From the NCBI RefSeq assembly GCF_000332315.1, contig NZ_KB235938.1, forward strand, positions 315,155 through 349,141: DNA of 33,987 bases, given 5' to 3'. Shown one piece after another: positions 16,109-33,405 of the stretch (position 1 is the first letter of the stretch; every line of letters begins with the position of its first letter). Source of the DNA: Prochlorothrix hollandica PCC 9006 = CALU 1027 (lineage in GTDB: Bacteria; Cyanobacteriota; Cyanobacteriia; Prochlorotrichales; Prochlorotrichaceae). Under the pieces are notes generated by a model. That model had not been told where the DNA came from. It was given only the letters and a program-made list of their open reading frames with translations, and did not search any database. Made by a program: the position numbers and the translations under genes.

Positions 16109-16127
16109 GGATAAATGAACCAGTCTT

Positions 16128-16280
16128 ATGTCTGATACTGTTATTCGGGTTGAAAATTTAGGGAAGAAGTACATCATTGGGCACCAGAAGTAGGAGAAGT
16201 ACACCTCACTGCGAGATGTGATTGCGGATGGAGCGAGGTCTATTTTTAGTTCTCTCACTCAAAACTCAAACAAAATTTAG
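16128..16280 (+). pseudogene. wzt: wzt 5'-fragment, copy D (with nonsense mutation)
   Basis: Same 153-bp unit, but codon 22 is TAG (16191-16193; CAA or CAG in the other copies), so only 21 residues could be made. A few further substitutions (GAGAAG, GCGAGAT, TCTATTT) show it is an older or independently diverged copy. It is followed by the common junction leading into hicB. Confidence 0.85.
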
Positions 16281-16291
16281 GATGTCTTGAT

Positions 16292-16483
16292 ATGCCAGTC
16301 GAAATAGATGAAAAAAAGTCTTCTCTTCAACTTATTTCAATTGTTATTGAAGGCAATGAAGAAGGCTATCTAGCCAGAATTCCTAACATTCAAGGGGCTT
16401 TTGCAGAAGGTGATACCCCTCAGGAAGCGATCTTTAACTGCTTAGATGTACTGAGTATGATTATTGAATATCGAAAGCAGTAG
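16292..16483 (+). CDS. hicB: HicB family antitoxin
   Basis: 63 residues: LQLISIVIEGNEEGYLARIPNIQGAFAEGDTPQEAIFNCLDVLSMII. This is the partial RNase H-like fold of HicB, which neutralises the HicA mRNA interferase. Length is normal for the short HicB class. The first codons, ATGCCAGTCGA, are the shared junction sequence found after wzt copies A and D, so the junction repeat may have originated from the 5' end of hicB. The cognate hicA immediately downstream is broken. Confidence 0.8.
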   Translation: MPVEIDEKKSSLQLISIVIEGNEEGYLARIPNIQGAFAEGDTPQEAIFNCLDVLSMIIEYRKQ

Positions 16484-16491
16484 TCATTCCA

Positions 16492-16587
16492 ATGCCTAAT
16501 CATGGCAGTAAATCGATTCGCAAGGGAACACTTAGAGCTATCATCAAGTAAATAGGTGTTAGCGTAGCGGAATTTATGGATTCATGA
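16492..16587 (+). pseudogene. hicA: hicA toxin remnant
   Basis: ATG CCT AAT CAT GGC opens MPNHGSKSIRKGTLRAIIK, the C-terminal half of a HicA (YcfA-like) toxin including the conserved NHGSKSIRKGTLRAI. TAA at 16549-16551 sits where family members have CAA (Q), and the frame continues IGVSVAEFMDS to TGA. The N-terminal half with the catalytic histidine is missing. It is therefore non-functional, leaving hicB as an orphan antitoxin. The end runs into wzt copy E. Confidence 0.8.
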
Positions 16588-16618
16588 TCTACTAATCTTT
16601 ATTCTCTTCGTATTTCTT

Positions 16619-16663
16619 ATGTCCGATACTGTTATTCGCGTTGAAAATTTAGGGAAGAAGTAC
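16619..16663 (+). pseudogene. wzt: wzt 5'-fragment, copy E (cut by ISL3)
   Basis: ATGTCCGATACTGTTATTCG and on to AAGAAGTAC, the first 45 bases of the repeat, then the left end of the ISL3 element. The sequence right of the element is unrelated to wzt, so the rest of this copy is not present. This could be the original full gene, lost through an IS-associated deletion. Confidence 0.8.
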
Positions 16664-17922
16664 GGCTCTCTGGGAATGAGGCCGTATAGTGTATAATAGG
16701 TTACGTCTTGAGTGAAGTCAGCTTATGTTCCTTTCTTTAAATCAAATCATTAAGATTCCTGGCTGGGAAGTGTGGCATACCAACATAGAGAGTGACCGTA
16801 TTACCTTTTTGCTAAGGTATTTGAACGAGATAGAGGTTTGTCATTTTTGTGGCTCGAAACAGATTTCCGTCCATAAAATTCGCAAAGTATCAGTAAGAGA
16901 CTTAGAGTTTTTAGACAAGAAAACCTTTTTAGAATTAGAGAGACACCAATACTACTGCAATGAGTGTCGTAAATATTTTACTGAATCGTCCAGCGACATC
17001 GACTTTCAACGCGGAATGACAGAAAGATACAAAAATAGAATCTTTGAGAAAATTAAAAATTCAACGATTACCCATGTTGCTCAAGAAGAAGGTTTAACTT
17101 ACGATCAAGTAAAAGGTATTTTAGAATCAAAATTTAATGGAAGCAACAATCTGAATTGCAATATCAATAAAATAAGTATAGATGAGTTCAGTCACCGTAA
17201 AGGTCAGGGAAACTTTGCGACAGTGATTTGTGATTTAGAAACAGCAAATCTCATCGAAGTGATTGACTCTCACCAACAGGATAAAATCATCGAAATCCTT
17301 ATGGAGTGGCCGTTAGAGGTAAGAGAGGCTATTACAGAGGTTAGTGTAGATATGTGGGGCGGATTTACAAAAGTCATCCAAACTGTGTTCCCAAATGCAC
17401 GTATTGTATATGATCGTTTTCATGTCATGAAAATCTTGAATGAAGAACTTAATAAAATACGAAAACAGTGTAATTCGGTGCTTAAAGATCTCAAAATAAA
17501 GCATATCCGTAGCCTTATTCTAAAAAACGGAACAGATCTTAATGACGAAGAAAAAAAGCTCCTAGAAATCATCCTGAAATCCTCTGAAAGGCTAAGCAAT
17601 GCCTATCAGCTAAAGGAAGATTTTCGTCAAATCTATGAAACAGATCAAGAACCTGAAGTGGCTAAAGTTAAATTAGAAGAATGGTTAGCCAAAGCATCCA
17701 AATTTTATAGTCAAGTAATCACGACAATCAAAAATCATTTTGATGGAATCTGTAATTACTTTTATAACCGTACAACTAGCGGTAAAATGGAGGGAATTAA
17801 TAACAAAATAAAGGTTATCAAGCGTCAAGCTTATGGATTCACAAACTTTGATCATCTGAGAATGAGACTCATCATAGCCTGTTCTCATTAGTTTTACTTA
17901 TCAGCTTCATTCCCAGAGAGCC
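16664..17922 (+). mobile_element. ISL3-family insertion sequence, copy 1 (1259 bp)
   Basis: Terminal inverted repeats GGCTCTCTGGGAATGA / TCATTCCCAGAGAGCC bound a single transposase gene. Flanks are AGAAGTAC on the left and GAATTCTT on the right, so there is no target duplication, unlike copy 2. The two copies have the same length, and I spotted only about five base differences. Lack of duplication suggests recombination or adjacent deletion after insertion. Confidence 0.93.
16725..17891 (+). CDS. ISL3 family transposase
   Basis: 388 residues. The N-terminal zinc-ribbon has CHFCGSKQ and CNECRKYF (about 38 and 77). A helix-turn-helix segment follows, then the DDE transposase core with ISIDEFSHRKGQGNFATVICD, VSVDMWGGFTKVIQTVFPNA and YDRFHVMKILNEELNKIRK. 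A C-terminal helical part ends GKMEGINNKIKVIKRQAYGF. Length and order are typical for ISL3 and the frame is intact. It differs from the copy at 26897 by two residues (H/N after EVW, I/L near the end). Confidence 0.95.
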   Translation: MFLSLNQIIKIPGWEVWHTNIESDRITFLLRYLNEIEVCHFCGSKQISVHKIRKVSVRDLEFLDKKTFLELERHQYYCNECRKYFTESSSDIDFQRGMTERYKNRIFEKIKNSTITHVAQEEGLTYDQVKGILESKFNGSNNLNCNINKISIDEFSHRKGQGNFATVICDLETANLIEVIDSHQQDKIIEILMEWPLEVREAITEVSVDMWGGFTKVIQTVFPNARIVYDRFHVMKILNEELNKIRKQCNSVLKDLKIKHIRSLILKNGTDLNDEEKKLLEIILKSSERLSNAYQLKEDFRQIYETDQEPEVAKVKLEEWLAKASKFYSQVITTIKNHFDGICNYFYNRTTSGKMEGINNKIKVIKRQAYGFTNFDHLRMRLIIACSH

Positions 17923-18066
17923 GAATTCTTGATGAAAGTTGGTTTCCTTAAAAGCTCGACTTTGTGCAGAGTTAAGACTTTGATTGCCACTAAATCCGAC
18001 CCATGAAGAAGTCACGATAGCTGCCAATAATTCAATGCCCCATAATATGTAACTCTTTCTCTCTCG
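17923..18066 (-). pseudogene. Minus-strand coding remnant cut by ISL3 copy 1
   Basis: From the IS edge, the reverse frame reads 48 codons without a stop, including ILWGIELLAAIVTSSWVGFS and GNQSLNSAQSRAFKETNFHQ. An N-terminal hydrophobic helix followed by a polar stretch looks like the beginning of a small membrane protein. No start codon is obvious, and a TAA precedes the frame at 18067-18069. The family is not recognised. The 3' part would have lain on the other side of the IS but is not there. Confidence 0.35.
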
Positions 18067-18127
18067 TTAGTTATGGGTACTAATTTGCTCGTAATTTAAC
18101 TTCGCAGTGATAAAAACGACAAAAATA

Positions 18128-19921
18128 ATGAACTTTGTTAGAAAATTATTAAAGCTTCTCAAATTTTTACCCAAAAAACGCACTCGGCAGCTAAACATAT
18201 TGTTTGTTTTAGGATTGATAACATCAATTAGCGAAATAGTAAGTATTGGTGCTTTATTGCCATTTCTAAATGCAATATCTAATCCCAGTTATATGCTGGA
18301 AAATAGTTATATCCAAATAATTACTACAAGTTTTAAGATTACTTCTCCTCGTGATTTATCAATCTTGCTAAGTTTGGTATTTATCTTAGCAATAGTTATT
18401 GCTAATGGCTTGAGACTCATTACTTTATGGGTTCAAACAAAATTAGTAGCTTTAATGGCGAATGATTTGAGCTTTGCTTGTTACCGCACAAGTATTCTGC
18501 AACCCTACAGCTTTTATCTTAAAAGTAATAGCAGCACAATAATCGTTCAATCAACAGAATATGTAGATGGAACGATTGGAATAATTTATGCTTCGCTTAG
18601 CTTCATTCTATCCTTTTTAACCCTGATAGCCATTTTATTTGGTCTATTGATTGTTAATTGGAAAATCACTTTAGGAGGAATTTTAATCATTTCTGTAATG
18701 ATTTTGCCTGTGATTAATTTTAGTAAATATCGCTTAACAAAAAACAGTAGACAAATAGCCAATTACTCTCAAATGAGGATCAAACTTATACAGGAAAGTA
18801 TCGGTGGAATTAGAGATATTTTACTGGGTGGTTCCCAATCTATTTTTCTTAAAAATTTTTATATTACAGACCTAACTCTAAGAAAACTTCATGCCAATAA
18901 TCAGTTTTTAGGTTCGGTTAATCGACCATACATGGAAGCGATGACAATGGGGGCGATCGTCCTACTCATTTTATTTATGTTGCAAACCAACGCTTCACCA
19001 TCCACGGTATTAACCATATTAGGGACAATGATTTTAGGATTAAATAGGCTTTTGCCATTGGTGCAACAATGTTATAGTTACTGGGCATTTATGAGAAGTA
19101 ATAGTTCATATTTGTATGAAATACTTGTCGTGTTACAAAGACCTATTTCTCAATATTACCTTGAGCCTAAATCAAATGTATTGTCTTTTAAGAAAGAAAT
19201 TCGCCTTGATAATGTTGGCTTCAGATACTCTTCTGAATTAGATTGGGTACTGCAAAATGTTAACCTAACTATTCCAGTAAATCAGACGATTGGTTTTTTT
19301 GGTGGTTCGGGATGTGGAAAAACCACTACTGCTGATTTAATTTTGGGATTAATCAAGCCTGAACTGGGAGAACTTTTTGTCGATAATACATCACTTACTG
19401 ATGATAAGCTTAGATGGGCTTGGCAAAAAAATGTTACAAATGTCCCTCAATCTATTTATTTAAGTGATGCTTCTATAGCCGAAAATATTGCTTTTGGATT
19501 AGAAGCTTCAGAAATTGATATAAACAGAGTGAAAGAAGCAGCCTATTTAGCTCAAATTCATGAATTTGTAGAAAAACTTCCTAATAAGTATCAAGAAACC
19601 GTAGGAGAAAGAGGTGTTAGACTTTCGGGAGGGCAACGTCAGCGTATTGGTATTGCCCGTGCTTTGTATAAACGCGCTTCTTTAATTATATTTGACGAGG
19701 CAACCAGTGCATTAGATAATGAAACTGAACAGGAGGTAATGGATGCGATTTACAATCTTAGGGAAAGGGTAACTATTATTATTATTGCTCACCGTCTCAG
19801 CACGTTGAGACTTTGTTCTCAAGTTTTTGAGTTTAAAGATGGGATCATTTCATTTAAAGGTAGTGGTAAAGATATTGCAGGAAAGCCAATTGAAGATGCC
19901 TCAGAAAAACTACTTATTTGA
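18128..19921 (+). CDS. ABC transporter, membrane-fused ATPase (PglK-like flippase)
   Basis: About 597 residues. The N-terminal transmembrane domain (about 25-340) has six hydrophobic helices and early text RTRQLNILFVLGLITSISEI, typical of PglK/WlaB-type lipid-linked oligosaccharide flippases. The nucleotide-binding domain (about 365-580) has Walker A GGSGCGKTT, Q-loop VPQSIYLSDASIAENIAFG, signature LSGGQRQRIGIARAL, Walker B LIIFDEATSALD and the H-loop IIAHRLST, all intact. It probably flips or exports a glycan lipid for this cluster. A GTG start at 18107 adds seven residues; ATG at 18128 (MNFVRKLLKLL) is preferred. Confidence 0.9.
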   Translation: MNFVRKLLKLLKFLPKKRTRQLNILFVLGLITSISEIVSIGALLPFLNAISNPSYMLENSYIQIITTSFKITSPRDLSILLSLVFILAIVIANGLRLITLWVQTKLVALMANDLSFACYRTSILQPYSFYLKSNSSTIIVQSTEYVDGTIGIIYASLSFILSFLTLIAILFGLLIVNWKITLGGILIISVMILPVINFSKYRLTKNSRQIANYSQMRIKLIQESIGGIRDILLGGSQSIFLKNFYITDLTLRKLHANNQFLGSVNRPYMEAMTMGAIVLLILFMLQTNASPSTVLTILGTMILGLNRLLPLVQQCYSYWAFMRSNSSYLYEILVVLQRPISQYYLEPKSNVLSFKKEIRLDNVGFRYSSELDWVLQNVNLTIPVNQTIGFFGGSGCGKTTTADLILGLIKPELGELFVDNTSLTDDKLRWAWQKNVTNVPQSIYLSDASIAENIAFGLEASEIDINRVKEAAYLAQIHEFVEKLPNKYQETVGERGVRLSGGQRQRIGIARALYKRASLIIFDEATSALDNETEQEVMDAIYNLRERVTIIIIAHRLSTLRLCSQVFEFKDGIISFKGSGKDIAGKPIEDASEKLLI

Positions 19922-19969
19922 ATCTATACTCAAACCTCTAATTGTATTGACTTTTATTCTCGGCTTATT

Positions 19970-20946
19970 ATGAATAACTTTATTTCTTTTCAAAAATCAA
20001 GATTCAGTAGAATCAAGAAAATGAGCTTTTCTCAGTTCTATTCTAAGCTCATTGAAAAATTAGACCATCTTTTCTCTCCCATAAAAAATCTGCGCCGCGC
20101 TGCCTTTGCTTTAGATAAATTTAGCCTAAGTTTTTTCGAGGATAACTATCAAGAAAGGGAAGAAGTTGGAGCGGTTAATTTTGAAGTGAAGACTGAGCGT
20201 CAACAGATGGGGGGGTATTTTGAACAACCATTGATTGTGTTACTAAATAGAGCGTGTAACCAATTAATTAACTATGATTCTTCTTGTCAAAAAATCTTAG
20301 AGGTTGGTAGTGGCACTGGTATTTTTGCTTATGAAGCTGCCAAAGAAAATGGAAGACAGGTTGTCGCCAGTGAATTTAATGATGGTGCTAGGAGTTGGGC
20401 AGATGCTAATCGTAAACGAGACAACTTAACTTACTGTAAGCTTCCTTTATCTGAATTCACAAAAAATGAATTTGATGTTGTTGTTTCCATTGAAGTAATA
20501 CAGCAACCCTAAATCAGTTGTAAGGATCTCGAAGGCTGAAACCCTTGGTGTGGTGTGCCCCCGGAGGGGGCACACCACACGACCCATTTAGGACTGCTGT
20601 AGAACATATTTATGATTATCATTCTTTCTTGTTGGAACTTTCATCTGTTGCTCCTAAGGCAATTATTACAACCCCTAACAAAAATAGAAACCCTTTTGAC
20701 TCGATTATAAATACCCCTACATATGGTGAACATTGTCGAGAGTGGACATCGGGAGAATTTTATTGGGTGTTGCGGACTTTTTACAAGCAAGTCTTTTTGT
20801 ATTCATTGCCAAACCTTGATGATCAGATTAGGCGATTTCTTGAAAGTCCAGATTCCTATGTTCCTTTAATGTCATCTGTGGGCGTTCTCAGCAAAGAACA
20901 TATTTTAATTGCTAAGTGTGAAGAACCCTGTTTTTCGATAAATTAA
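19970..20946 (+). pseudogene. SAM-dependent methyltransferase, interrupted by a MITE
   Basis: The N-terminal part carries the class I methyltransferase motif I, ILEVGSGTGIFAYEAA (about 107-122), and reaches FDVVVSIEVI at the MITE. The part after the MITE continues EHIYDYHSFLLELSSVAPKAIITTPNK. Deleting the 99-bp element plus one TA joins SIEVI to EHIYD in frame, the usual post-motif sequence (VIEHI.D), giving a 291-residue protein. The present frame stops inside the MITE, and the ORF that resumes at 20545 starts artificially inside the element. The likely substrate is a sugar or lipid-linked glycan, inferred from the neighbourhood. Confidence 0.92.
20501..20599 (+). mobile_element. 99-bp MITE, copy 3 (inside the methyltransferase gene)
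   Basis: CAGCAACCC...GGACTGCTG with flanking TA at 20499-20500 and 20600-20601 and the same central 15-bp hairpin. Same length and orientation as copy 2, with only a few differences (for example AAGGATCTCGAAGG for AGGCATCTCGATGG, and inverted loop sequence). Confidence 0.93.
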
Positions 20947-20989
20947 TTAGGGTAAATCAGGGATCTAATGAAATAACTTAATTAAAATC

Positions 20990-22804
20990 ATGATATTTTC
21001 CAACAATCTTATTCATATCCTTGGACACTATACTTCTGAAAATAAGGATTCACTGACAAACCTGCTAAATACTCAGTATAGTGATAACAATAAATTTTTT
21101 AAATCATTTTTTCAATTAAAGAATCTTGTTCTATCTCTTGCCTCAAGAAATACTATTGAGACCGAACCTCGTAACTTTTCTCATCAAGATTGGTATATTT
21201 GGTTAATTGGTGAAGTTTATCAATGTAACGCTATCGGGTTTGACGCTAAAAATTCTAATTGCCTAGACCATCAGGATTTTGGACACTTTCTTATTGATAA
21301 AATATGCAGTCCTAGAAACTGGAAAGCTTTACAAGAAATTGATGGACAATTTATTTGTGTATTTTATAGCAGGTCAGAAGAAGCTTTGTATATCGTCAAT
21401 GATCGCTTTGGTGGTATTCCGTTATACTACTCTGTTGCATCTAATCAATTTTTCTTTTCTACCAGTCTAAATTCGATCGCCACTCTGCCTAACTTTAACT
21501 ATCAACCAGATGAGGAAGCGTTAAAAGAATCCATTAATTTCGGTGGTTTTAGGCTAGGTGATCGCACTGGTGTTGCTGGCATCAAAATACTGCCTTGGGC
21601 TTCGGTTTTAGAATTTAAACTAGAATCACCGCCTCGGTTAATCAGATATTGGAATCCTCAAGATACTCAAAGACAAAACTTATCCAATAACTTAGAAGAT
21701 TTAGTTGAAGAAGCCTATCACCTTTGGCAATTAGCGATCGTTAGACGAGTTGTAGATCTCAAAATCCCCGGTCAAACACTAAGTGGCGGGTTAGATAGTC
21801 GAGCGATATTAGCTGAAGTCCACGAACGGTTTCCTCAGTGGACAGGTATTAGTTTTGGTGTGCCTAATTGTGATGATGTAAGGTATGCTTTTCAAGCATC
21901 TCAAGCAACTGCAATACGTTATATATGTCATCCAATGTATTACGGCTTTAGTGAATACTGGTTTGAAAAACGTCTAGGTTATGTGTGGGAATCGGACGGG
22001 ATGGTAGATTTTTCTAATTTATTACACTGGGAAACTTTACCTCTACAAGAAATGCTTTTTGATGGACATATTTCAGGATTTATCGGTGATGTAATAGGTG
22101 GAGGAAGTTGGGACGAAGTTAAAGACGTTAAATCCTTTTTAAACCGACTGCCTTTCTATGACACTAATCTGGGGATTGATTCAGCTAAAGCAAAAGAAGG
22201 AGTAGACTCAATACTCAAAAATACAACGGACAGAAAAATTAAATATGTCTTTTATGAAGCTAAGGTATCACAGCAGACTAATCTACTATTTCAAGCTCCT
22301 TATAATCGCATTAAAGTCAGGAAGCCATTTGTTGATTACCAATTGTTTGACTTTTTTGAGTCTTTATCAGATGAAGTAAGAAAATTGCTTTATCCTACGA
22401 TGCTCAAAAGTAAATACCCCAGTTTATATCAGCATATCCCCAACCAAAAAACGGGAATGCCTATTCTCACTCCATCGTGGAAGTTGAATATAGAACGGGC
22501 AAGAAGATTAATTTATCGAAAAACCCAGCCTTCACTCAAGAAATTAGGCTTCAACTGTGAACCTAGAGCTAGACTTTTTTTAGATGATTACAAGGCTGTT
22601 AATATTGGAGACACTAAACACAAAATTCGAGAGTTACTTTTGTCTAATGATTCAATAGTCAAAGAAGTTTTGGACCAAGAGCGATTAGAGAAGTTTATAT
22701 CTGCTTGGCTCGATTTTGGTAATGCACCAACCAATGCGATCGGTGCTATGATTTCTTTTGAGGTTTTTCATCAAGAAATTAAAAAAAGGAGGCTTAACTA
22801 TTAG
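20990..22804 (+). CDS. Asparagine-synthetase-like protein lacking the glutaminase cysteine
   Basis: 604 residues. The N-terminal Ntn-like domain is recognisable (QEIDGQFICVFYSRSEEALYIVNDRFGGIPLYY, about 118-150), but there is no Cys2: the protein begins MIFSNNLIHILG, so it should not hydrolyse glutamine. The synthetase domain has the ATP-pyrophosphatase loop LSGGLDSRAILAEV near 260. In sugar-polymer clusters such AsnB-like proteins are thought to amidate sugar acids or related groups; the exact substrate is unknown. It is intact and lies in the polysaccharide operon between the broken methyltransferase and an acyltransferase. Confidence 0.82.
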   Translation: MIFSNNLIHILGHYTSENKDSLTNLLNTQYSDNNKFFKSFFQLKNLVLSLASRNTIETEPRNFSHQDWYIWLIGEVYQCNAIGFDAKNSNCLDHQDFGHFLIDKICSPRNWKALQEIDGQFICVFYSRSEEALYIVNDRFGGIPLYYSVASNQFFFSTSLNSIATLPNFNYQPDEEALKESINFGGFRLGDRTGVAGIKILPWASVLEFKLESPPRLIRYWNPQDTQRQNLSNNLEDLVEEAYHLWQLAIVRRVVDLKIPGQTLSGGLDSRAILAEVHERFPQWTGISFGVPNCDDVRYAFQASQATAIRYICHPMYYGFSEYWFEKRLGYVWESDGMVDFSNLLHWETLPLQEMLFDGHISGFIGDVIGGGSWDEVKDVKSFLNRLPFYDTNLGIDSAKAKEGVDSILKNTTDRKIKYVFYEAKVSQQTNLLFQAPYNRIKVRKPFVDYQLFDFFESLSDEVRKLLYPTMLKSKYPSLYQHIPNQKTGMPILTPSWKLNIERARRLIYRKTQPSLKKLGFNCEPRARLFLDDYKAVNIGDTKHKIRELLLSNDSIVKEVLDQERLEKFISAWLDFGNAPTNAIGAMISFEVFHQEIKKRRLNY

Positions 22805-22809
22805 CCAAC

Positions 22810-22932
22810 TTGATCTCTACTTCTTTGTGGGGTGCAGACTGTTGGGAAAAGCCCTTAGATGTGTGGGAGAAAGATCCAAATTCTTTATTTAGAATCTTAA
22901 CCATTTTGCATTATATAAATAAAAATCCTTAA
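22810..22932 (+). other. Short open frame, possible gene remnant
   Basis: In the 135-bp gap after the AsnB-like gene, a frame reads LWGADCWEKPLDVWEKDPN then SLFRILTILHYINKNP and stop, preceded only by a TTG. Amino-acid composition is protein-like and suggests the C-terminus of a lost gene or a frameshifted extension. The family is not recognised. Confidence 0.3.
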
Positions 22933-22939
22933 AGCAAAA

Positions 22940-23623
22940 ATGAAAAATCCTATAAAACATATTAATTGGTTATCTGCTTTTCATATAATGCGTAGCATTA
23001 ATTTTCATTTATCTCATCATGTGGTTAAGAATTCTATATCGAAAAAGTATTTAGGGCTTTGTTCTTATATGGATGCTTTTACTAACGTTTACTTTGAAAA
23101 GAATTCTGTTGTTGAATTTAATAACGAAGGTTTTTTAGTCTTTGGAACAGAAAGAAGTAGCTTTCAGGGATGGGCTAAGCCCAATTCTCTTTTTTTAAGA
23201 AGCGCAGGAAGACTCATTATTAATGGTTATAATGAGATTGGGCGAGGCTCATTGGTATGGATTTTAGATAACGGAACAATTACGCTGTCAGGTAATTCCT
23301 ATACAGCAGGAAACAATATGTTGGTTTCTAAATCAAGTATTGAAATTGGTAAAGACTGTTGTATCGCTTGGGGAGTGACAATTTGTGATCATGATTTTCA
23401 TAAATATTATGTTAATGGAATTCAACAAACTGAAACATCGCCAATAGTCATTGAAGATAGCGTTTGGATTGGAATGAATGCAACTATCCTAAAAGGAGTC
23501 AGGATAGGAAGCGGTGCAATAGTGGGCGCTCATTCAGTTGTCACAAAGGATGTTCCTTCAAAAGCGATCGTAGCGGGGAATCCTGCGCGGATTATTAAAG
23601 AGAATGTTGAATTTTACGGCTAG
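22940..23623 (+). CDS. Hexapeptide-repeat acyltransferase (left-handed beta-helix)
   Basis: 227 residues. The C-terminal two-thirds is a hexapeptide-repeat helix (EIGKDCCIAWGVTICDHDFH, then SVWIGMNATILKGVRIGSGAIVGAHSVVTKDVPSKAIVAGNPARII), the catalytic form of O-acetyltransferases such as the maltose/galactoside acetyltransferase and WbbJ types. The histidine in CDHDFHKYY is the likely catalytic base. It probably acetylates a sugar of the exported glycan using acetyl-CoA. No signal peptide, so cytoplasmic. Confidence 0.9.
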   Translation: MKNPIKHINWLSAFHIMRSINFHLSHHVVKNSISKKYLGLCSYMDAFTNVYFEKNSVVEFNNEGFLVFGTERSSFQGWAKPNSLFLRSAGRLIINGYNEIGRGSLVWILDNGTITLSGNSYTAGNNMLVSKSSIEIGKDCCIAWGVTICDHDFHKYYVNGIQQTETSPIVIEDSVWIGMNATILKGVRIGSGAIVGAHSVVTKDVPSKAIVAGNPARIIKENVEFYG

Positions 23624-23647
23624 TTTACTATCAAATCTACCCTAGTT

Positions 23648-24853
23648 ATGCAAGAAAATACAGAAATAAATACTTATATGCCTTTACTAAATAAGAGGGT
23701 AACTATCTTATTGCCTGGCAATACTATTTTCGGTCAGGAGCGCGCATTAGTTGCATTGGGAGAGCTAATTCGTGATTGCGGAGGAAATGTCGATTTTATA
23801 ATTCACAAACAATGGGGCATTGGAGAAATATCTAACTATCTCGAAAATAAAAAATTCGCTTGGGAAGTTTATCCTTTCGGAACTTTGTGGATGAAAAATA
23901 GACCTAAGGTTATTTTTTTTAATCTTATCTCATTATTTATATGTTCCTGTAAGTTTTTATCTTTTAAGATTAAGAGGAAACCTGATTTATTGATTTGTGG
24001 TAACTACACATTTACTTGGTATATATTACCAGCGATTTTTGTAACACGACAGAAATTATTGTTTAGATTTGGTGATGTACTACCATCACATAATATAGTT
24101 CTAAAGCTATTGAATAAATTAATTCTTTTGTGTTCATCAGAAGTAGTATCAAATTGTTGTTATTTGTCAAACTGTATATCTCAGGAATTTAATATTGATA
24201 AACCCTTAGTTATATACAATAAATCTGCGCTCGAAAAAAAACTGAGTCATAAGCAGGTTGCCAACAAAAAAACAAAAAACCTACTCGATACTATAAAAAT
24301 CTTATATGTTGGTCAAATCTCGGAGCATAAGGGCGTAGATATTTTACTTAACGCTGTTACTAGAATCCTTGAAAGCCAAAAGTATAACATCGAGTTATAT
24401 TTGGTAGGTAAACCCTCTGGTGTAGATAAAGAGCAGATAAACAGTTTATCATTAAAAATAAATGATACTTGCAAATTATTTCCCGAAAAAGTTCATTGGA
24501 TACGTGACTCAAATGACCCTGTAAGCTACTATGAATCTAGCGATATTCATGTCTGCCCATCGCTTTGGGCAGAGCCTTCGCCAAACGTGGTATTTGAAGC
24601 TAAGTCTTTTGCGTTGCCATCTGTGATTTTTCCAGTTGGAGGATTGCCTGAACTAGTAGAACACATGGTTGATGGTTTTATATGTAAATCAACATCAGAA
24701 ATGGGGTTGATTGAGGGAATCAGTTACTTTCTTGAAAACCCAAATCAAAGAAATAACTGTTCAAAAATGGCTCTGCTTTCTTCGGAAAATAAGTTTTCAG
24801 CGTCTTCTTACCGCCATTCTTGGTTAAGATGCTTGCAAACTATTCTTGCATAA
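23648..24853 (+). CDS. Glycosyltransferase family 4
   Basis: 401 residues, GT-B fold. The N-terminal domain begins RVTILLPGNTIFGQERALVALG. The C-terminal nucleotide-sugar domain has ILYVGQISEHKGVDILLNAV (about 219-238) and HVCPSLWAEPSPNVVFEAKSFALPSVIFPVGGLPELV, with the E-x7-E-like donor-binding motif (E of AEPSP and E of FEAKS). It transfers a sugar to the growing glycan on the cytoplasmic face. The 3' end overlaps the longest frame of the next gene but not its preferred start. Confidence 0.9.
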   Translation: MQENTEINTYMPLLNKRVTILLPGNTIFGQERALVALGELIRDCGGNVDFIIHKQWGIGEISNYLENKKFAWEVYPFGTLWMKNRPKVIFFNLISLFICSCKFLSFKIKRKPDLLICGNYTFTWYILPAIFVTRQKLLFRFGDVLPSHNIVLKLLNKLILLCSSEVVSNCCYLSNCISQEFNIDKPLVIYNKSALEKKLSHKQVANKKTKNLLDTIKILYVGQISEHKGVDILLNAVTRILESQKYNIELYLVGKPSGVDKEQINSLSLKINDTCKLFPEKVHWIRDSNDPVSYYESSDIHVCPSLWAEPSPNVVFEAKSFALPSVIFPVGGLPELVEHMVDGFICKSTSEMGLIEGISYFLENPNQRNNCSKMALLSSENKFSASSYRHSWLRCLQTILA

Positions 24854-24891
24854 ATATTTGTCAAAACAAAAATAACAACGACAACAAAACT

Positions 24892-25599
24892 ATGAGTACT
24901 CAAAATAGACTGAATCGAGTGACAAATAAAATTATTACAGGACATGAAAATAGTAGTTTTCGTAAATCCAGATTTCATGATGCCAAAGGTAATTTTATTG
25001 GTTGGAGTCGTTTAATTAAACATACTCCTATTGCTGTTATGACAACTCTAGCTCGTGTCTTATTTGGATATCGATTCCAGTTGCCATGGATATCATACCA
25101 AAGCATATTTTTATTTAACTCATTTTTAAACAAAGATAAGTGTGTCTTTGAATTTGGCTCTGGTATGTCAACCGTTTGGTATGCAAAACATTCTAAATTT
25201 GTAACTGCGGTAGAAGACGATGGTGATTGGTATGCAATGATTGACAAAAGTATAAAAACAATGGATATTGTTAATGTCGATTACATTTTTTGTGAATCTG
25301 CTGAAGACTATACCTCTATTATCTCCAAAAAGGATACGAAGTTCGATCTTATTGTTGTTGATGGTAGCTGTAGAGATGTGTGTATGCAAAACGCCATCAA
25401 ATTCGTTAATATAGGTGGAATCATTTATTTAGATAATTCAGATGCATATGCTTACCATGATTTGAATAATGACCATGTACGCCAAGCAGAAATTACTGCT
25501 ATCGAATTTGCCCGTAAAAATAATTTTAAATTTGAATTTGTTACAGACTTTTCTCCTGGACAACTTTTTGTTCATCAGGCATTAATAATTTTCTGTTAA
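24892..25599 (+). CDS. Class I SAM-dependent methyltransferase-like protein
   Basis: 235 residues from ATG 24892 (MSTQNRLNRVTNK). An earlier start at 24820 overlaps the previous gene and is less likely. A Rossmann signature is visible as KCVFEFGSGMSTVWYAKHSKFVTAVEDD (motif I plus acidic end of strand 2), followed by FDLIVVDGSCRDVC and GGIIYLDNSD, the pattern of Methyltransf_24-type or FkbM-like proteins. Substrate unknown, presumably a glycan component. Low GC throughout. Confidence 0.75.
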   Translation: MSTQNRLNRVTNKIITGHENSSFRKSRFHDAKGNFIGWSRLIKHTPIAVMTTLARVLFGYRFQLPWISYQSIFLFNSFLNKDKCVFEFGSGMSTVWYAKHSKFVTAVEDDGDWYAMIDKSIKTMDIVNVDYIFCESAEDYTSIISKKDTKFDLIVVDGSCRDVCMQNAIKFVNIGGIIYLDNSDAYAYHDLNNDHVRQAEITAIEFARKNNFKFEFVTDFSPGQLFVHQALIIFC

Positions 25600-25675
25600 A
25601 TTGATTACTGATGGCTCTTCAACATACTTGCCCATAAACTAATACTTCTTGAATAAATTAAGGTCAAATTAAATC

Positions 25676-26278
25676 ATGCAAGCAAAAACTTTAATTCATA
25701 CCGTTAAATACTTTCTAGGCATTGATAGTGCGGATACCCAAACTTCTCTCAATGAAAGAGATGCCTTGAAACATTTGGCAAAAAATGCGAGTAAGGTGTT
25801 GGAAATTGGTGTTTTTGAAGGACATTCCACCAAATTACTGGCTGAGTCCATGAGTTCTTCGGGAATACTCTATGCGATCGATCCTTTTTTTGCTGGTCGT
25901 TTAGGTATTAGCTATGGAGAATTAATTAGCCGATCGCAAATCAGCAAGGCTTGTCAGCAGAACAAAGGAGTTCGAGTTAAGATCTTAAAAGATCTTAGCC
26001 ATATTGTAGCTCAGAAAAATACAGACTTATGTGATTTAGATTTAATTTTCATTGATGGGGATCATTCCTTAGAAGGCATTACAAGAGATTGGCAAGATTG
26101 GTCTGAAAGAGTAAAGAAAGGGGGAGTTATAGCTCTTCATGATACTAAAGTTCCTGCCTACAATCCAAATGTTGCAAATTTAGGGAGTTTTCAATATTTT
26201 GAGTCTCATATTAAACACGATCAGGGTTATGAATTGCTTGAACAAATAGATTCTCTCAGTGTTTTACAAAGAAAATAA
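25676..26278 (+). CDS. Class I SAM-dependent methyltransferase (Methyltransf_24 type)
   Basis: 200 residues: KVLEIGVFEGHSTKLLAESM (motif I, about 40-60), GILYAIDPFFAGR (strand 2 acid), DLDLIFIDGDHSLEGITRDW and GGVIALHDTKVPAYNP. The DGDHS...HDT arrangement is typical of cephalosporin-hydroxylase or macrocin-O-methyltransferase-like proteins found in surface-polysaccharide clusters. Complete, no lesion seen. Confidence 0.85.
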   Translation: MQAKTLIHTVKYFLGIDSADTQTSLNERDALKHLAKNASKVLEIGVFEGHSTKLLAESMSSSGILYAIDPFFAGRLGISYGELISRSQISKACQQNKGVRVKILKDLSHIVAQKNTDLCDLDLIFIDGDHSLEGITRDWQDWSERVKKGGVIALHDTKVPAYNPNVANLGSFQYFESHIKHDQGYELLEQIDSLSVLQRK

Positions 26279-26835
26279 TTTCAAATAATATTAGTTAATG
26301 TCATTAAATTATCATTCGCACCAAGGTCAAGACAAAAGACAAATCTTTCAAGTAGTTGTCTGGGTAGTTTCTTTAATTTTTGGGACTTGGGGGTTACTCA
26401 CTCCTAATCCCTTAGAATCTTTTATATCCTGTTTGATTTTTCCGATTCTTTTCTCTCTACTGTGGAAATCGGGCGAGATTCCTGTATTACTTTTTGTCGC
26501 TAGTTTTCAATCCCTAGAGATTACTACTCCTGTTTTGAATGCCAATTTATTAGGTATAACCCTAGAAGAACAGTTTGGAGGATCAGAGTTAGCTTTGTCA
26601 TTTTACTTTAGTATAATCTCCATTATTATTCTTGTTTTCGGAATGAAAATGGGTTTAGGAAAGCAGTCAAATATTAATTTTTCTGAAATCAATCTTAACT
26701 CATTTCAATTGACACCTTCTCGCTTGGCAATTTTATATATTTTATTATTTGTTTTTTCGCTGTCTATACGTTCTTTTGCTTTTGCTAATCCCTCTATTAC
26801 ACAAGTTGTTTTACCCGTAGCTTCATTAAAATGGT

Positions 26836-28094
26836 GGCTCTCTGGGAATGAGGCCGTATAGTGTATAATAGGTTACGTCTTGAGTGAAGTCAGCTTATGT
26901 TCCTTTCTTTAAATCAAATCATTAAGATTCCTGGCTGGGAAGTATGGAATACCAACATAGAGAGTGACCGTATTACCTTTTTGCTAAGGTATTTGAACGA
27001 GATAGAGGTTTGTCATTTTTGTGGCTCGAAACAGATTTCCGTCCATAAAATCCGCAAAGTATCAGTAAGAGACTTAGAGTTTTTAGACAAGAAAACCTTT
27101 TTAGAATTAGAGAGACACCAATACTACTGCAATGAGTGTCGTAAATATTTTACTGAATCGTCCAGCGACATCGACTTTCAACGCGGAATGACAGAAAGAT
27201 ACAAAAATAGAATCTTTGAGAAAATTAAAAATTCAACGATTACCCATGTTGCTCAAGAAGAAGGTTTAACTTACGATCAAGTAAAAGGTATTTTAGAATC
27301 AAAATTTAATGGAAGCAACAATCTGAATTGCAATATCAATAAAATAAGTATAGATGAGTTCAGTCACCGTAAAGGTCAGGGAAACTTTGCGACAGTGATT
27401 TGTGATTTAGAAACAGCAAATCTCATCGAAGTGATTGACTCTCACCAACAGGATAAAATCATCGAAATCCTTATGGAGTGGCCGTTAGAGGTAAGAGAGG
27501 CTATTACAGAGGTTAGTGTAGATATGTGGGGCGGATTTACAAAAGTCATCCAAACTGTGTTCCCAAATGCACGTATTGTATATGATCGTTTTCATGTCAT
27601 GAAAATCTTGAATGAAGAACTTAATAAAATACGAAAACAGTGTAATTCGGTGCTTAAAGATCTCAAAATAAAGCATATCCGTAGCCTTATTCTAAAAAAC
27701 GGAACAGATCTTAATGACGAAGAAAAAAAGCTCCTAGAAATCATCCTGAAATCCTCTGAAAGGCTAAGCAATGCCTATCAGCTAAAGGAAGATTTTCGTC
27801 AAATCTATGAAACAGATCAAGAACCTGAAGTGGCTAAAGTTAAATTAGAAGAATGGTTAGCCAAAGCATCCAAATTTTATAGTCAAGTAATCACGACAAT
27901 CAAAAATCATTTTGATGGAATCTGTAATTACTTTTATAACCGTACAACTAGCGGTAAAATGGAGGGAATTAATAACAAAATAAAGGTTATCAAGCGTCAA
28001 GCTTATGGATTCACAAACTTTGATCATCTGAGAATGAGACTCCTCATAGCCTGTTCTCATTAGTTTTACTTATCAGCCTCATTCCCAGAGAGCC
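26836..28094 (+). mobile_element. ISL3-family insertion sequence, copy 2 (1259 bp, with target duplication)
   Basis: Inverted ends GGCTCTCTGGGAATGAGGC on both sides (19 bp). An 8-bp direct duplication, AAAATGGT, at 26828-26835 and 28095-28102 marks a simple, probably recent insertion. Same orientation as copy 1, 8.9 kb away. Confidence 0.96.
26897..28063 (+). CDS. ISL3 family transposase
   Basis: 388 residues, identical to the transposase at 16725 except Asn for His after EVW and Leu for Ile in the last ten residues. The zinc ribbon (CHFCGSKQ, CNECRKYF) and the DDE-domain segments are intact, so it should be active. Confidence 0.95.
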   Translation: MFLSLNQIIKIPGWEVWNTNIESDRITFLLRYLNEIEVCHFCGSKQISVHKIRKVSVRDLEFLDKKTFLELERHQYYCNECRKYFTESSSDIDFQRGMTERYKNRIFEKIKNSTITHVAQEEGLTYDQVKGILESKFNGSNNLNCNINKISIDEFSHRKGQGNFATVICDLETANLIEVIDSHQQDKIIEILMEWPLEVREAITEVSVDMWGGFTKVIQTVFPNARIVYDRFHVMKILNEELNKIRKQCNSVLKDLKIKHIRSLILKNGTDLNDEEKKLLEIILKSSERLSNAYQLKEDFRQIYETDQEPEVAKVKLEEWLAKASKFYSQVITTIKNHFDGICNYFYNRTTSGKMEGINNKIKVIKRQAYGFTNFDHLRMRLLIACSH

Positions 28095-29059
28095 AAAATG
28101 GTTTATAATTTTCTTAATTGGTTGGTCAGGTCTTCGACAAAATAATTTCAGGACTTTGATGTATATTGTACTCGCCATTGAGGTTATATTGGGTTTTAGT
28201 GGTTATTTTAGTGGTTTTAAGACAATTTTTTTCCTATTTATTGTTTTAGCTTCCGGTAAAATTAAGCGACTTAAAGATGTTCTTCGACCTATATACTTAT
28301 TCCTATTGATTGGTGTGTTAATTTTAACTACTTACTGGCAAAGTATTAAATTTGATTACCGAAATTATGTTAATTTAGGTTCTAACACTCAAACCATCCA
28401 GGTTTCTGGGGTGGATATAGTTAACTTTCACCTCAACAATATTAAAGATTTTAATTTAGAAGATTTTAATAGCGGCTTAGATTCTGGCTTGAGAAGATTG
28501 GGTTATTTAAACTTTTTTGCTTATAGTATCCGTCAAGTACCAGCAAGTATCCCTCACCAAAACGGCAGACTTTGGTTTGAGGTCATTCGTCATATTCTTA
28601 CGCCCCGAATATTATTCCCCGATAAACCACCCATCAACGATTCCGATCGAACCAATGAATTTACAAGATTAGGAGTTGCAGGAGCAGATAAAGGTACATC
28701 TATTAGTATTGGTTATATGGGAGAAAGTTATATTGATTTTGGATTTCCATTAATGTTATTTCCTATTTTCATTTTAGGTTATTTTTGGGGTGCATCTTAC
28801 CGATTGTTGATCAATATTCCTAAATACCCTATTTTAGGTTTAGCCGCCGGGACAATTTTTCTCTTAAGTTTTGGTATTTCTGTCGGTACTTCTAATATTA
28901 AAATGGTAGGTGGTGCTATTAGTACTTTGATAATTTATGTCTTTGTACTTAAATTCTTTGATCAAAGAGTTTGGAAACTGTTGGCCGCTAATCAAAGAAT
29001 CAAGAAAATTGTCTAAACATGAATTTTAATAATTCAAAAATGACGTTACTAATACTCGT

Positions 29060-30241
29060 ATGAAATTAGCGGTTATTACCTCTCATCCCATTCAATATTA
29101 TGCACCTTGGTTTCGTTATCTTAATGATCATACGGAACAGTTGGGTTTGAAAATAAAAATTTTTTATCTATGGGATTTTGGAGTCACTGAAAAACTAGAT
29201 GTGGGCTTTAAGAAATCTATTCAATGGGATATTCCGCTTCTAGAAGGTTATGAATACGAATTTGTAACCAATCTCAGTAAAGATCCTGGTACTCATCATT
29301 TTTGGGGATTGCAAAATCCTAACCTATTTAAGCAAGTTTATGATTACCAACCCAATGCTGTTTTATTAATGACCTACAATTACGCCAGTTTATATCAATT
29401 TATTTGGTCTTGGAAAAAAACAAATATCCCTTTAGTATTTCGTGGTGATTCGCATAGATTATTCGCAAATCAAAGAAGTTTAAAATTTAAATTAAAGCAC
29501 AATATTATTAAATTTATCTATAAAAACTTTTCAGCTTTTTTGTATGTGGGCAAGGCTAACTACGACTATTTCCGTATTCACGGAGTTCCTATAGAAAAGC
29601 TTTTTTTTGCACCCCATTCTGTAAATAACGATTACTTTTTTGAACAAGCTGAACAGGCTAGAATAAAGACAAAAATATGGAAGCAAGAATTGCAGATTGC
29701 AGAAGATAATCTGGTTATTTTATTTGCAGGTAAATTAGAAGAAAAAAAACGACCATTGGACTTATTAACAGCATTTACTCAAGCAAATCTATCTAATACC
29801 ACTTTACTTTTTGTAGGTGACGGAGAATTAGACAACAAATTAAAAAATCAGGCTAAATCCTTTCCTAATGTAAAGTTTGCTCCGTTTCAGAATCAAAGTT
29901 TAATGCCTCGTACTTATGCGATCGCCGATTTGTTTGTATTACCAAGTTATAGCGAAACTTGGGGGTTAGCGGTAAATGAAGCTATGTGCTTATCCCGCCC
30001 TATTATTGTCAGCGATCATGTCGGTTGTGCTTCGGATTTAGTAATTCCTGATCAAAATGGATTAATTTTTCCTGCGGGTAATATTAATGAGTTAGCACAA
30101 GTCATTAAAAAGGCTTGTGCTAATAAAGAAAGATTAAAAAATTGGGGTAAACGTAGTCGAGAGATAATTAATGATTATAGCTATGAGCGTTTAACAAATG
30201 GACTTTTGCAATCTTTAAAATACTTATCAATTATCAATTAA
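29060..30241 (+). CDS. Glycosyltransferase family 4
   Basis: 393 residues. The N-terminal domain starts MKLAVITSHPIQYYAPWFRY, a pattern seen in cyanobacterial and proteobacterial exopolysaccharide GT4 enzymes. The donor domain has VILFAGKLEEKKRPLDLLTA (lysine/arginine phosphate-binding loop, about 223-242) and ADLFVLPSYSETWGLAVNEAMCLSRPIIVSDHVG with the E-x7-E motif. The stop TAA is immediately followed by the ATG of the next glycosyltransferase (no gap), so the two are translationally coupled. Confidence 0.92.
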   Translation: MKLAVITSHPIQYYAPWFRYLNDHTEQLGLKIKIFYLWDFGVTEKLDVGFKKSIQWDIPLLEGYEYEFVTNLSKDPGTHHFWGLQNPNLFKQVYDYQPNAVLLMTYNYASLYQFIWSWKKTNIPLVFRGDSHRLFANQRSLKFKLKHNIIKFIYKNFSAFLYVGKANYDYFRIHGVPIEKLFFAPHSVNNDYFFEQAEQARIKTKIWKQELQIAEDNLVILFAGKLEEKKRPLDLLTAFTQANLSNTTLLFVGDGELDNKLKNQAKSFPNVKFAPFQNQSLMPRTYAIADLFVLPSYSETWGLAVNEAMCLSRPIIVSDHVGCASDLVIPDQNGLIFPAGNINELAQVIKKACANKERLKNWGKRSREIINDYSYERLTNGLLQSLKYLSIIN

Positions 30242-31405
30242 ATGATCAATAAATCTAATCAAAAAAAGTTTCATTTATGGATTCCCAGTCTTTTTTCGAT
30301 GAAAGGCGGAATTGAAACCTATTCAATGTTTGTCTGGGAAGCAATAAAGCAAAATATATATGACGGTTCTTATAACTCCTATAACATATTTATCAAAAAT
30401 GATACGGCAATACCAACTGATTTTGTTTCTCCATCAACAGAATATACTTTCGCAGGAAAAATACCTTCGCCTTTAAGAACTATAATTTTTTCGATTCAGC
30501 TAATTGTAGGAGCAATTTGGAAAAAACCTAATCTAATTATCACAACTCATCTTAACTTTATTCCTGTTGCTCATTTTCTTAAAACATTACTTGGTATTCC
30601 CTATTATACTGTTGCCCATGGTATTGAAGCTTGGAATATTGAAAATCATAGGCTAATTACAGCATTAAAGGATGCCGACAAAATTTTAGCAGTCAGTAAC
30701 TATACAAGAGACAAATTAATTAAAGAGCAAAATCTTAATCCCGATAATATTCTTGTTTTAACCAATACTTTCGATCACCAAAAATTCAAAATATCAGCAA
30801 AGACAGATTATTTATTACACAGACATCACTTAAAAAGAGATACAAAAATTATTTTGACGATAGCGAGACTCTCTGCTAGTGAGCAATATAAAGGCTTTGA
30901 TCAAATTATTCGGTCTTTGCCTCAAATCATTATCGAAACTCCCAATATTCACTATGTTCTTGTCGGCAAAGGCGATGATCGAGCTAGAATAGAAAACTTA
31001 GTTAAGGGTTTACAACTAGAAAATTACGTCACTTTAGCAGGATTTATTCCTGATGAAGAATTATGCGACTATTATAATTTATGTGATGTTTTTGCCATGC
31101 CTAGTAAAGGAGAAGGGTTCGGAATTGTTTATCTAGAAGCAATGGCTTGTGGAAAACCCTGCTTAGGGGGCAATCAAGATGGAGCATTAGATGCCTTAGA
31201 TCAGGGAGAAATAGGCGTTCTAGTGAATCCAGATGATATTGATGAAATTGCAGAAGCTTTAATTCAGATTCTTCAAAAGAAATATCCAAATCCTCTCCTC
31301 TATCAGCCCGAACAATTGCGTCAAGCTGTAATCGATCGCTTTGGTTTTGAAATCTTTCAGCAACGCCTTCATGAATACTTGGATGATTTTATGACTTGTT
31401 TGTAA
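30242..31405 (+). CDS. Glycosyltransferase family 4
   Basis: 387 residues. The N-terminus, WIPSLFSMKGGIETYSMFVW, has the acceptor-domain GG loop. The donor domain has ILTIARLSASEQYKGFDQII (about 201-220) and FAMPSKGEGFGIVYLEAMACGKPCLGGNQDGALDAL with E-x7-E. Starts directly at the preceding gene's stop. Probably adds a sugar in the same repeat unit. Confidence 0.93.
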   Translation: MINKSNQKKFHLWIPSLFSMKGGIETYSMFVWEAIKQNIYDGSYNSYNIFIKNDTAIPTDFVSPSTEYTFAGKIPSPLRTIIFSIQLIVGAIWKKPNLIITTHLNFIPVAHFLKTLLGIPYYTVAHGIEAWNIENHRLITALKDADKILAVSNYTRDKLIKEQNLNPDNILVLTNTFDHQKFKISAKTDYLLHRHHLKRDTKIILTIARLSASEQYKGFDQIIRSLPQIIIETPNIHYVLVGKGDDRARIENLVKGLQLENYVTLAGFIPDEELCDYYNLCDVFAMPSKGEGFGIVYLEAMACGKPCLGGNQDGALDALDQGEIGVLVNPDDIDEIAEALIQILQKKYPNPLLYQPEQLRQAVIDRFGFEIFQQRLHEYLDDFMTCL

Positions 31406-31497
31406 TCTATTCGTAATCTAATAGACGCTAGAAATCATGATGACTAAGTTAAACTAAACCAATGGTCAGCTTTTTAGCTGCGTGACTGAGGATTAAC

Positions 31498-31953
31498 ATG
31501 AAAGTCGATCGTGATTTGTACCAGAGAGATATTTACTGTTGGGCAGAACAAACTGTCTCCGTCTTACGGCAGAAATCTTGGGACAATTTAGATCTCAATC
31601 ATCTTATTGAGGAGATTGAAGATTTGTCAAAACGAGAGCGAGATCGGCTGTTGAGTTCGATCGAAATTCTTTTGCTTCATTTACTAAAGTGGAAATATCA
31701 AAGGCAAAAACGAAGCAGAAGTTGGAAGGTTTCTATCGATCGAGAACGCATTAATTGTCAGAGTTACTTGGAAGACACCCCCAGTCTTAAGCAATTTTTA
31801 ACTGAACAGTGGATTAGTAAGTGTTATCAAAGGGCACGGAAAAAAGCAGCGAGTGAAACAAACCTAGATTTAAGTTGCTTTCCCAGTGATTTACCATTTA
31901 GAATTGATGAAATCCTTCGCTCAGAATTTTTTCCCTGCTCTACTGGTGAGTAA
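31498..31953 (+). CDS. DUF29 family protein
   Basis: 151 residues: LYQRDIYCWAEQTVSVLRQKSWDNLDLNHLIEEIEDLSKRERDRLLSSIEILLLHLLKWKYQ, then SRSWKVSIDRERINCQSYL. Canonical DUF29 with the conserved LLKWKYQ, second member in the window (the other is at 14522). GAGGATT lies about five bases before the ATG. Function unknown. Confidence 0.85.
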   Translation: MKVDRDLYQRDIYCWAEQTVSVLRQKSWDNLDLNHLIEEIEDLSKRERDRLLSSIEILLLHLLKWKYQRQKRSRSWKVSIDRERINCQSYLEDTPSLKQFLTEQWISKCYQRARKKAASETNLDLSCFPSDLPFRIDEILRSEFFPCSTGE

Positions 31954-31986
31954 GGTATAAGCATAAAACTTACGAGGTTTTTCAGT

Positions 31987-32172
31987 ATGTGTGGGATCAG
32001 CGGTGTCATTAGTACCCAACAAATCGCAGGGTTAGGATTGATCGCTCAACGGTTGCAAAATGCTCTGACTCACCGGGGACTAGACGATCGCGGTATCTAC
32101 TTCTCCCCTACCCAGCAAGCAAGCCTGATCCACACCCGCCTCTCTATTCTCGATCGCTCATCCAACTCCTAA
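31987..32172 (+). pseudogene. asnB 5' fragment (glutaminase domain start)
   Basis: MCGISGVISTQQIAGLGL...ALTHRGLDDRGIYF...ASLIHTRLSIL is the N-terminus of a glutamine-dependent asparagine synthetase, with the catalytic Cys2 and the HRG(P/L)DD.G and H.RLSI.D motifs. It stops at TAA 32170-32172 after 61 codons, where about 600 would be expected. The continuation is a glycosyltransferase in another frame. The join lies in CGATCGCT, a HIP1-like word. It is a truncated relic, unlike the AsnB-like gene at 20990, which is full length but lacks Cys2. Confidence 0.88.
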
Positions 32173-33379
32173 CCCCAATGCTCGCAATGCCGCCCTTGCA
32201 CTTTACGATCTAGGCTATCTGAATTCTATTATTACAACCATTTCTTATAATCCCAATAGTCGGCTAGCAAAATATATATTAAGTTTACCAAGGTATGGCT
32301 CTAAGATTCATCAGGAGTTAAGCCGTCGAACCTGGATAGCTCCACCCAAGACTAAACTTTACACCCATCCCTGGCAAGAGTTGATCCGTATTTTGAGCGT
32401 TAAATCTGGCCTTAGCCACTCTCCCCAAGGCTGTATTAACCAAGTTTATAAATCTTTAGATACTCAAGTTGCTCGACAGCATCTCAATAACATTGATGCA
32501 ATCTATGCCTACGAAGATGGAGCAGCCACAACCTTCCATGCTGCAAAAGCTAAAGGTATTCTTTGCCTTTACGACTTACCGATTCCATACTATAAAACCA
32601 GTCGTCATATTCAACAAGAAGAAGCCCAGAACTTTCCTGAGCTAGCCAGTAGCTTACAAGCCATTGATGAACCTCAATGGAAGCTCGATCGCAAAGAGCA
32701 AGAAATTGCCTTGGCTGATCATATTTTTGTTGCTTCCTCCATGACCTATAACTCCTTAATTGACGCTGGAGTACCCGGTGATCGCATTTCAGTTATTCCC
32801 TATGGTGCCCCGATCGACTACTTCAAACCTCAGCCCAAACCGGATTCAACCTTTAGGGCACTCTTTGTCGGTCGCGTTGGCCCTCGCAAAGGCGTTCACT
32901 ATCTTCTCCGAGCTTGGCAGTCCCTCCAGTTACCAGAAGCTGAACTCCAACTCATAGGAATCAATGAGTTTCCTGCACATTGGTTAGAAAATTACCAAGA
33001 TCACATTGTTTATACACCTAGCGTCCCCCATCATACTCTCCAGCAGCATTATACCCGTGCTTCCGTTTTTGTGTTCCCCTCTTTGTTAGAAGGCTTCGGC
33101 TTAGTTTTACTAGAAGCCATGGCCTGCGGTATCCCGGTGATCACAACACCTAACACAGCCGGTCCTGATATCATTCAAGACGGAGTTGAGGGGTTTATTA
33201 TTCCCATTCGTGATGTGGAAGCTCTAAAGGAGAAAATTGAGTGGTGTTATCATAACCCTGAAGAACTAACAGAAATGGGGCACGCCGCACGTCGAAAAGC
33301 TGAGGATCTTACATGGGCGCAATATCGTTTCCAGCTAGGAAACCAAATCAAGAAATTAAAATCACTAAAAACCAAGTAA
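32159..33379 (+). pseudogene. Glycosyltransferase family 4, start codon lost
   Basis: The frame is open from the asnB junction: HPTPNPNARNAALALYDLGY, the usual second to twentieth residues of this GT4 group (which begin M-x-h-h-h-HPTPNPNARNAA), through to 33379. Donor-domain motifs are intact: ALFVGRVGPRKGVHYLLRAW and VFVFPSLLEGFGLVLLEAMACGIPVITTPNTAG. The native start is missing because of the fusion, and no ATG, GTG or TTG occurs before TTG at 32381, which would remove about 75 residues of the acceptor domain. Probably inactive or expressed in truncated form. Confidence 0.8.
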
Positions 33380-33405
33380 TAAAGTACTTAAATGAGTAAA
33401 ATTCA

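Follow-up and report, generated by a model that had tools for sequence, protein, structure and literature searches.

Near the end of the 33,987-nucleotide stretch of DNA analyzed here (the window), the first codons of an asnB-type gene are joined to a GT4 glycosyltransferase gene (GT), and it is probable (about 0.8 by our estimate) that illegitimate, that is, non-homologous, recombination joined two exopolysaccharide modules at this point, in the form of either a deletion or a replacement. Relatives show two operon types, one ending in c2-asnB-c4 and another arranged as c1-GT-c2-c4. Judged by gene order, the window is a hybrid of both types that ISL3-type insertions have cut again. The features are listed in Table 1.

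Table 1. Features on both sides of the joint, in window coordinates (c1, c2, c4 and wzy are our labels)
Feature	Position	Strand	Basis
Membrane-protein gene labelled wzy, split by an IS	26298..29016	+	Empty site of 484 positions; 48% match in G288
GT4 glycosyltransferase preceding c2'	29060..30241	+	55-61% identity to the gene before c2-asnB in 4/20 loci
c2' glycosyltransferase, of the family usually upstream of asnB	30242..31405	+	Cluster c2; c2 upstream of asnB in 16/20 loci
DUF29 gene between c2' and the asnB remnant	31498..31953	+	PF01724, E 5.1e-46
asnB remnant, codons 1-56 of about 600, AsnB-type amidotransferase	31987..32154	+	TIGR01536 and TIGR03108 matches; relatives
CGATCG word at the joint	32151..32156	+	Breakpoint scan, posterior 0.90 (after 32153, 32154 or 32155); no counterpart in 29 asnB and 18 GT relatives
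End of the lost gene c1 with its stop (TAA 32170-32172), now in the asnB frame	32155..32172	+	Stop register; tail likeness
GT4 glycosyltransferase of the c1-GT-c2-c4 operon, lacking the start codon and about 5-8 N-terminal codons	32156..33379	+	Alignment of relatives
Start of c2 (ATGAGTAAAATTCA) as far as the IS	33392..33405	+	c2 resumes on contig C1 past another IS copy; shared 8 bases AAAATTCA
ISL3-type IS running off the contig end	33406..33987	+	PF14690, PF13542; transposase frame of 148 aa versus 387 aa in the C1 copy

Position and reading frames of the joint

The window covers positions 315155-349141 of contig C6, and its end is the contig end, which lies 608 bases past GT and inside an insertion sequence (IS). 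Its GC content drops from 54-60% before position 9000 to 32-37% at 16001-32000. The AsnB frame begins at ATG 31987, runs through the motif SILD and stops at TAA 32170-32172 after 61 residues; the GT4 frame lies at +1 relative to it, is open across the joint and ends at TAA 33379. The word CGATCG at 32151-32156 spans the joint.

The switch between the two sides was located by a position-weight breakpoint scan with matrices built from 29 asnB and 18 GT relatives. The asnB set comprised 29 loci from the 30 best matches of the relative search, with the window's own locus left out; all 18 GT relatives were used, with looser patterns serving to place two of them (G075 and G102) and with one (G006) possibly out of register. 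The change from asnB-like to c1/GT-like sequence was found after 32153 (0.164), 32154 (0.140) or 32155 (0.593), and the summed posterior was 0.90 for these three bonds, all of which lie inside CGATCG. The joint is real, and the 1441-base stretch across it occurs once in the genome. An assembly or sequencing artefact might be suspected in a draft of 13 contigs in which this contig ends in a repeat 608 bases past GT, but it is very unlikely; the joint stretch is single, the joint lies 1.2 kb from the repeat, and the c1 stop described below has kept its register.

The asnB remnant

The remnant has kept 56 of about 600 codons, and approximately 90% of the gene is lost. Its match to TIGR01536 (E 3.7e-8) reached 32.8 bits against a cut-off of 267.1, a fragment's score below the family cut-off; the matches to TIGR01536 and TIGR03108 cover nearly the whole fragment, both below their cut-offs, and Pfam returned no match for it. 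The piece is 44-56% identical to its relatives (24 best) and has a GC content of 52.4%. The C-terminal synthase domain is absent from the remnant gene. In the whole genome, a full AsnB query hit this fragment and, apart from it, only a distant 22% match (window 21122-21820, equivalent to C6:336276-336974); in a profile search, two places narrowly exceeded the PF00733 cut-off of 21 bits (28.1 and 22.3). The asnB remnant is dead.

The glycosyltransferase and the lost gene c1

Comparison of GT with 25 relatives revealed 57-68% identity, with alignments from residue 2-5 to 405-410 of the 412-residue frame. The frame has no internal stop, and its C-terminal GT4 domain (PF00534; E 5.1e-37) scored 127.5 bits, above the curated cut-off of 26.4. 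We examined the neighbourhoods of 18 of the 25 strong GT relatives (17 fetched and locus L025), labelling ORFs by clustering or best BLAST match, and found that a gene for a protein of 448-523 aa, c1, lay directly upstream of GT in 18 of 18. The c1 stop and GT start were parsed in 16 of these neighbourhoods, G075 and G102 being left out. An in-frame ATG is present nine codons ahead of a conserved His codon, which is found at 32159 in the window, in 11 of the 16; the remaining parsed relatives start 7 (two), 10 or 13 codons before this His, or with GTG at 17. Taken together with the joint at 32153-32155, these starts indicate that GT has lost its start and about 5-8 codons.

In 13 of the 16 parsed relatives, c1 overlaps the GT start out of frame. 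The distance from the first base of the GT His codon to the end of the c1 stop is 14 nt in nine, the overlap figures in four further relatives are 11 (G133), 11 (G170), 20 (G209) and 8 (G006), and the two genes do not overlap in three (G016, G171 and G022). The stop of the asnB remnant in the window is also found at +14 from the His codon, in the same frame as the c1 stop of those nine relatives, and the tail of the remnant, RSSNS*, resembles the c1 tails PRSSHQ* (G167) and PGSSHQ* (G039). By stop register and tail likeness, the asnB remnant reads in frame into the last codons of c1 and ends at the c1 stop. The difference in frame between asnB and GT thus arises because the remnant runs in frame into the c1 end, which overlaps GT out of frame. 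A c1 query returned no match in the whole genome in a search run without a positive control, and a different c1 query picked up a weak match to c1 (24%, E 1e-8) near the start of contig C1.

Normal translation of GT is probably lost, because GT no longer has its start inside c1, and a common in-frame start codon is not met again until TTG 32381, about 85 codons into the proteins of the relatives; there is no ATG, GTG or TTG ahead of it in the GT frame. A living fusion, in which frameshifting or reinitiation downstream of the asnB-c1 mini-ORF would still yield GT, would suit a GT frame that is open throughout and a mini-ORF whose stop stands where that of c1 stood. We nevertheless consider it unlikely, as no start codon of these three kinds lies near the mini-ORF stop, and an IS interrupts the following gene, c2, in its fifth codon.

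These results revise the first-pass annotation in several respects. It had described the asnB frame as breaking off after SILDR at the point where a GT4 frame begins; the joint, the frames and the CGATCG word are all present, but asnB is not simply out of frame, since its tail carries the frame and stop of c1. It had also treated both genes as having lost a half, one of them being a headless glycosyltransferase. That description overstates the loss from GT, a gene that is nearly complete, and understates that from asnB. For its statement that the missing parts are not nearby, the downstream view is limited to the 608 bases before the contig end; in the whole genome, the AsnB query gave the result stated above.

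Two parental gene orders

To either side of the joint, the genes belong to a different conserved gene order, and the switch between the two lies within three bonds. Among 20 fetched asnB loci, c2 was found within two ORFs upstream of asnB in 16, and c4 was the next gene downstream in 19, one of these being a weak 34% match (G210). The counterpart of the gene at 29060 lies just before c2-asnB in four of these loci (G362, G288, G210 and G380) and is 55-61% identical to it. The order in the window, namely the wzy-like gene, the 29060 gene, c2', the DUF29 gene and asnB, is that of the front of an asnB-type operon; the 3' part of the wzy-labelled gene had no Pfam or NCBIfam match. In the 18 GT neighbourhoods, c2 was present in 16 and c4 in 14, not always adjacent, and AsnB was present in one (G102), downstream of GT in the order GT-c2-asnB-c4. 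We also observed that the DUF29-type genes at window 31498-31953 and 14477-14959 are about 36% identical. Additionally, a single cluster of G380 holds three c2 genes, including a tandem pair ahead of asnB (L144 6636-9098 and 17855-19024), which shows that such modules multiply in other cyanobacteria.

In the recombination that we propose, a front module, wzy-GT-c2'-asnB, would have been cut after asnB codon 56, and a rear module, c1-GT-c2-c4, would have been cut a few codons short of the c1 stop, where c1 and the GT start overlap. Provided that the two modules once lay on one strand, the front one upstream, the event would be a deletion, removing the rest of asnB, anything between the modules, nearly all of c1 and the first GT codons. 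Consistent with joined modules, the rear c2 and c4 are found on contig C1 behind another IS copy with 8 matching bases, and the GC content of the asnB remnant differs from the 32.5-34.4% of wzy, the 29060 gene and c2'. Against it, GT has no internal stop, which is unexpected after a long silence, AsnB is present in only one of the 18 GT neighbourhoods, and the genome contains the weak c1-like match on C1 and the two places above the PF00733 cut-off. Since AsnB was found only downstream of GT, in G102, deletion from a tandem arrangement is put forward as a proposal.

The parents are represented here by distant relatives, 44-56% identical for the asnB piece (24 best) and up to 68% for GT. The nearest GT is that of G039, at 68%, and all listed relatives belong to the same class. 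In none of the 18 GT neighbourhoods does the front module precede the rear one. A sister genome was sought among 39 genomes (own included), 388 of the class, and the orders of G039 and G102 (3 and 63 genomes), and none was found; exact peptide patterns against species contigs, which reach close relatives only, yielded one relative, the Cyanothece sp. SIO2G6 MAG.

Deletion is the simplest form of the event and a plausible one, and replacement by incoming DNA also fits. In a replacement, the end of incoming DNA carrying the low-GC front module would have joined a resident c1-GT operon and displaced its 5' part. This form, which we hold as possible but doubtful, would explain the contrast in GC content between wzy, the 29060 gene and c2' on the one hand and GT (44.3%), c2 (39.1%), c4 (46.5%) and a 211-kb genome sample (53.7%) on the other; the identity of 55.7% between c2' and the c2 on C1, within the range of either to other genera, also fits. 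However, the asnB remnant, at 52.4% GC, is unlike the rest of the supposed incoming module, and neither a donor nor a recipient state for a replacement was found. We infer a deletion rather than a replacement, together with loss of function.

The same c2 comparison bears on a head-to-tail joint of a tandem-duplicated GT-c2-asnB segment. The order in G102 offers a model for it, as duplication of that segment would put asnB against the front of GT. A duplication is scarcely credible, however, and we rejected it: identity between the two c2 genes is only 55.7%, a tree leaves them unresolved among other genera, C1 has c4 directly after c2 with asnB absent between them, and the genome has a single GT copy.

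Insertion sequences around the hybrid

The module on the rear side is interrupted by an IS within the fifth codon of c2. The C1 copy of this IS is 1248 bases long (L132 3020-4267, minus strand), is 99% identical over 584 compared bases and has c2 and c4 behind it. The left flank of the IS on C6 and its right flank on C1 have AAAATTCA in common and together restore the first codons of c2. The left side of the C1 copy differs (GAAGAGAT); this would fit recombination between IS copies or an assembly that jumps from one copy to another.

On the front side, an ISL3-type IS at 26836-28094 splits the wzy-labelled gene and is flanked by the 8-bp duplication AAAATGGT; the empty site translates into 484 positions with no internal stop. 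A second copy of this IS is present at window 16664-17922. It is 99.6% identical, has no matching 8-bp duplication (AGAAGTAC / GAATTCTT) and follows a short frame ending in VIRVENLGKKY, a motif that we take to resemble the start of an ABC-transporter ATPase. The flanks of this copy may have been rearranged.

The CGATCG word at the joint

The first-pass annotation had proposed that a deletion joined both genes, perhaps by short homology at the CGATCG word. A recombination joint is well supported by the two gene orders and the narrow switch, with deletion as such being its simplest form only. Shared homology at this word is not supported: CGATCG was present at the joint place in none of the 29 asnB relatives and none of the 18 GT relatives, and the endpoints in these distant relatives, which are not the actual parents, lack a shared copy. 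The residue after SILD in the 29 asnB relatives is Leu in 26 and Thr, Phe and Val in one each, and never Arg. Identity across the joint in 522 pairs of relatives was 0 (77), 1 (363), 2 (44) or 3 (38) nt, with a maximum of 3; runs of at least 3 nt occurred in 7.3% of pairs versus 10.9% in shifted registers and are not above the controls, a comparison made on the sequences of relatives, from which the parents may differ.

Recombination mediated by HIP1, in which both parents would have carried CGATCG and the two copies would have recombined, draws on the position of the most probable breakpoint inside the word. Additionally, only one or two changes would be needed on either side to give CGATCG, as TCGATC, with the last G missing, is found at the joint place in seven of the 29 asnB relatives, and GT of G102 has TCTATCGCTCA where the window has TCGATCGCTCA. 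We consider it quite unlikely, in view of the missing words, the Arg never seen after SILD, cross-joint identity no greater than in shifted controls, and the roughly 1% of local bonds that fall inside a CGATCG regardless. In particular, bonds inside a CGATCG make up 0.7% of the window and 1.0% of 29000-33405, and the window has 49 copies of the word (1.44 per kb), against 2.75 per kb in the 211-kb genome sample. The full octamer GCGATCGC is absent at the joint, where 32150-32157 reads TCGATCGC, and its sole occurrence right of 29000 is at 29918. A single joint inside such a word, chosen after the fact, is weak evidence for a role of HIP1. HIP1 receives a single mention in a review on recombination in cyanobacteria (PMC5101192).

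In a one-sided variant, a site-specific nuclease or failed methylation or repair would break a CGATCG-type site that is then sealed to an unrelated end. It is most unlikely in our estimate; if true, HIP1-type words would be breakage points on one side only, with no shared homology. Most likely, the word was formed by the joint and was not its cause, with asnB contributing between CGA and CGATC and the GT side the rest.

Implications and comparison with known systems

Overall, the polysaccharide locus is riddled with insertion sequences and looks like a case of ordinary gene decay through illegitimate recombination. It offers a small, clear example of polysaccharide operons that are recombined into hybrids and later degraded by insertion sequences. 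It also cautions that a joint can itself create a suggestive word; no support was found here for HIP1 as a recombination signal.

Deletions bordered by HIP1 are reportedly found at the Synechococcus smt locus, with the word at both borders. The present joint is similar in lying inside a CGATCG word, whereas the relatives, which are not the actual parents, have the word at neither endpoint. The asnB remnant matches the N-terminal end of both asparagine synthase (TIGR01536) and the XrtA-system amidotransferase (TIGR03108), but it has no synthase domain at all and is missing the greater part of the glutaminase region. Among HpsP/HpsL-type cyanobacterial polysaccharide genes (NCBIfam NF038295 and NF038300), c4 on C1 matches HpsP over its full length (336.5 bits), and c1 of G039, which has no Pfam match, gives a weak HpsL match (41.5 bits); both matches are under the NCBIfam cut-offs (550 and 640), so that these genes are relatives at most, and not HpsP or HpsL. 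The insertion sequences resemble known ISL3-type elements in their transposase domains (PF14690 and PF13542) and 8-bp duplications, with no notable difference seen.
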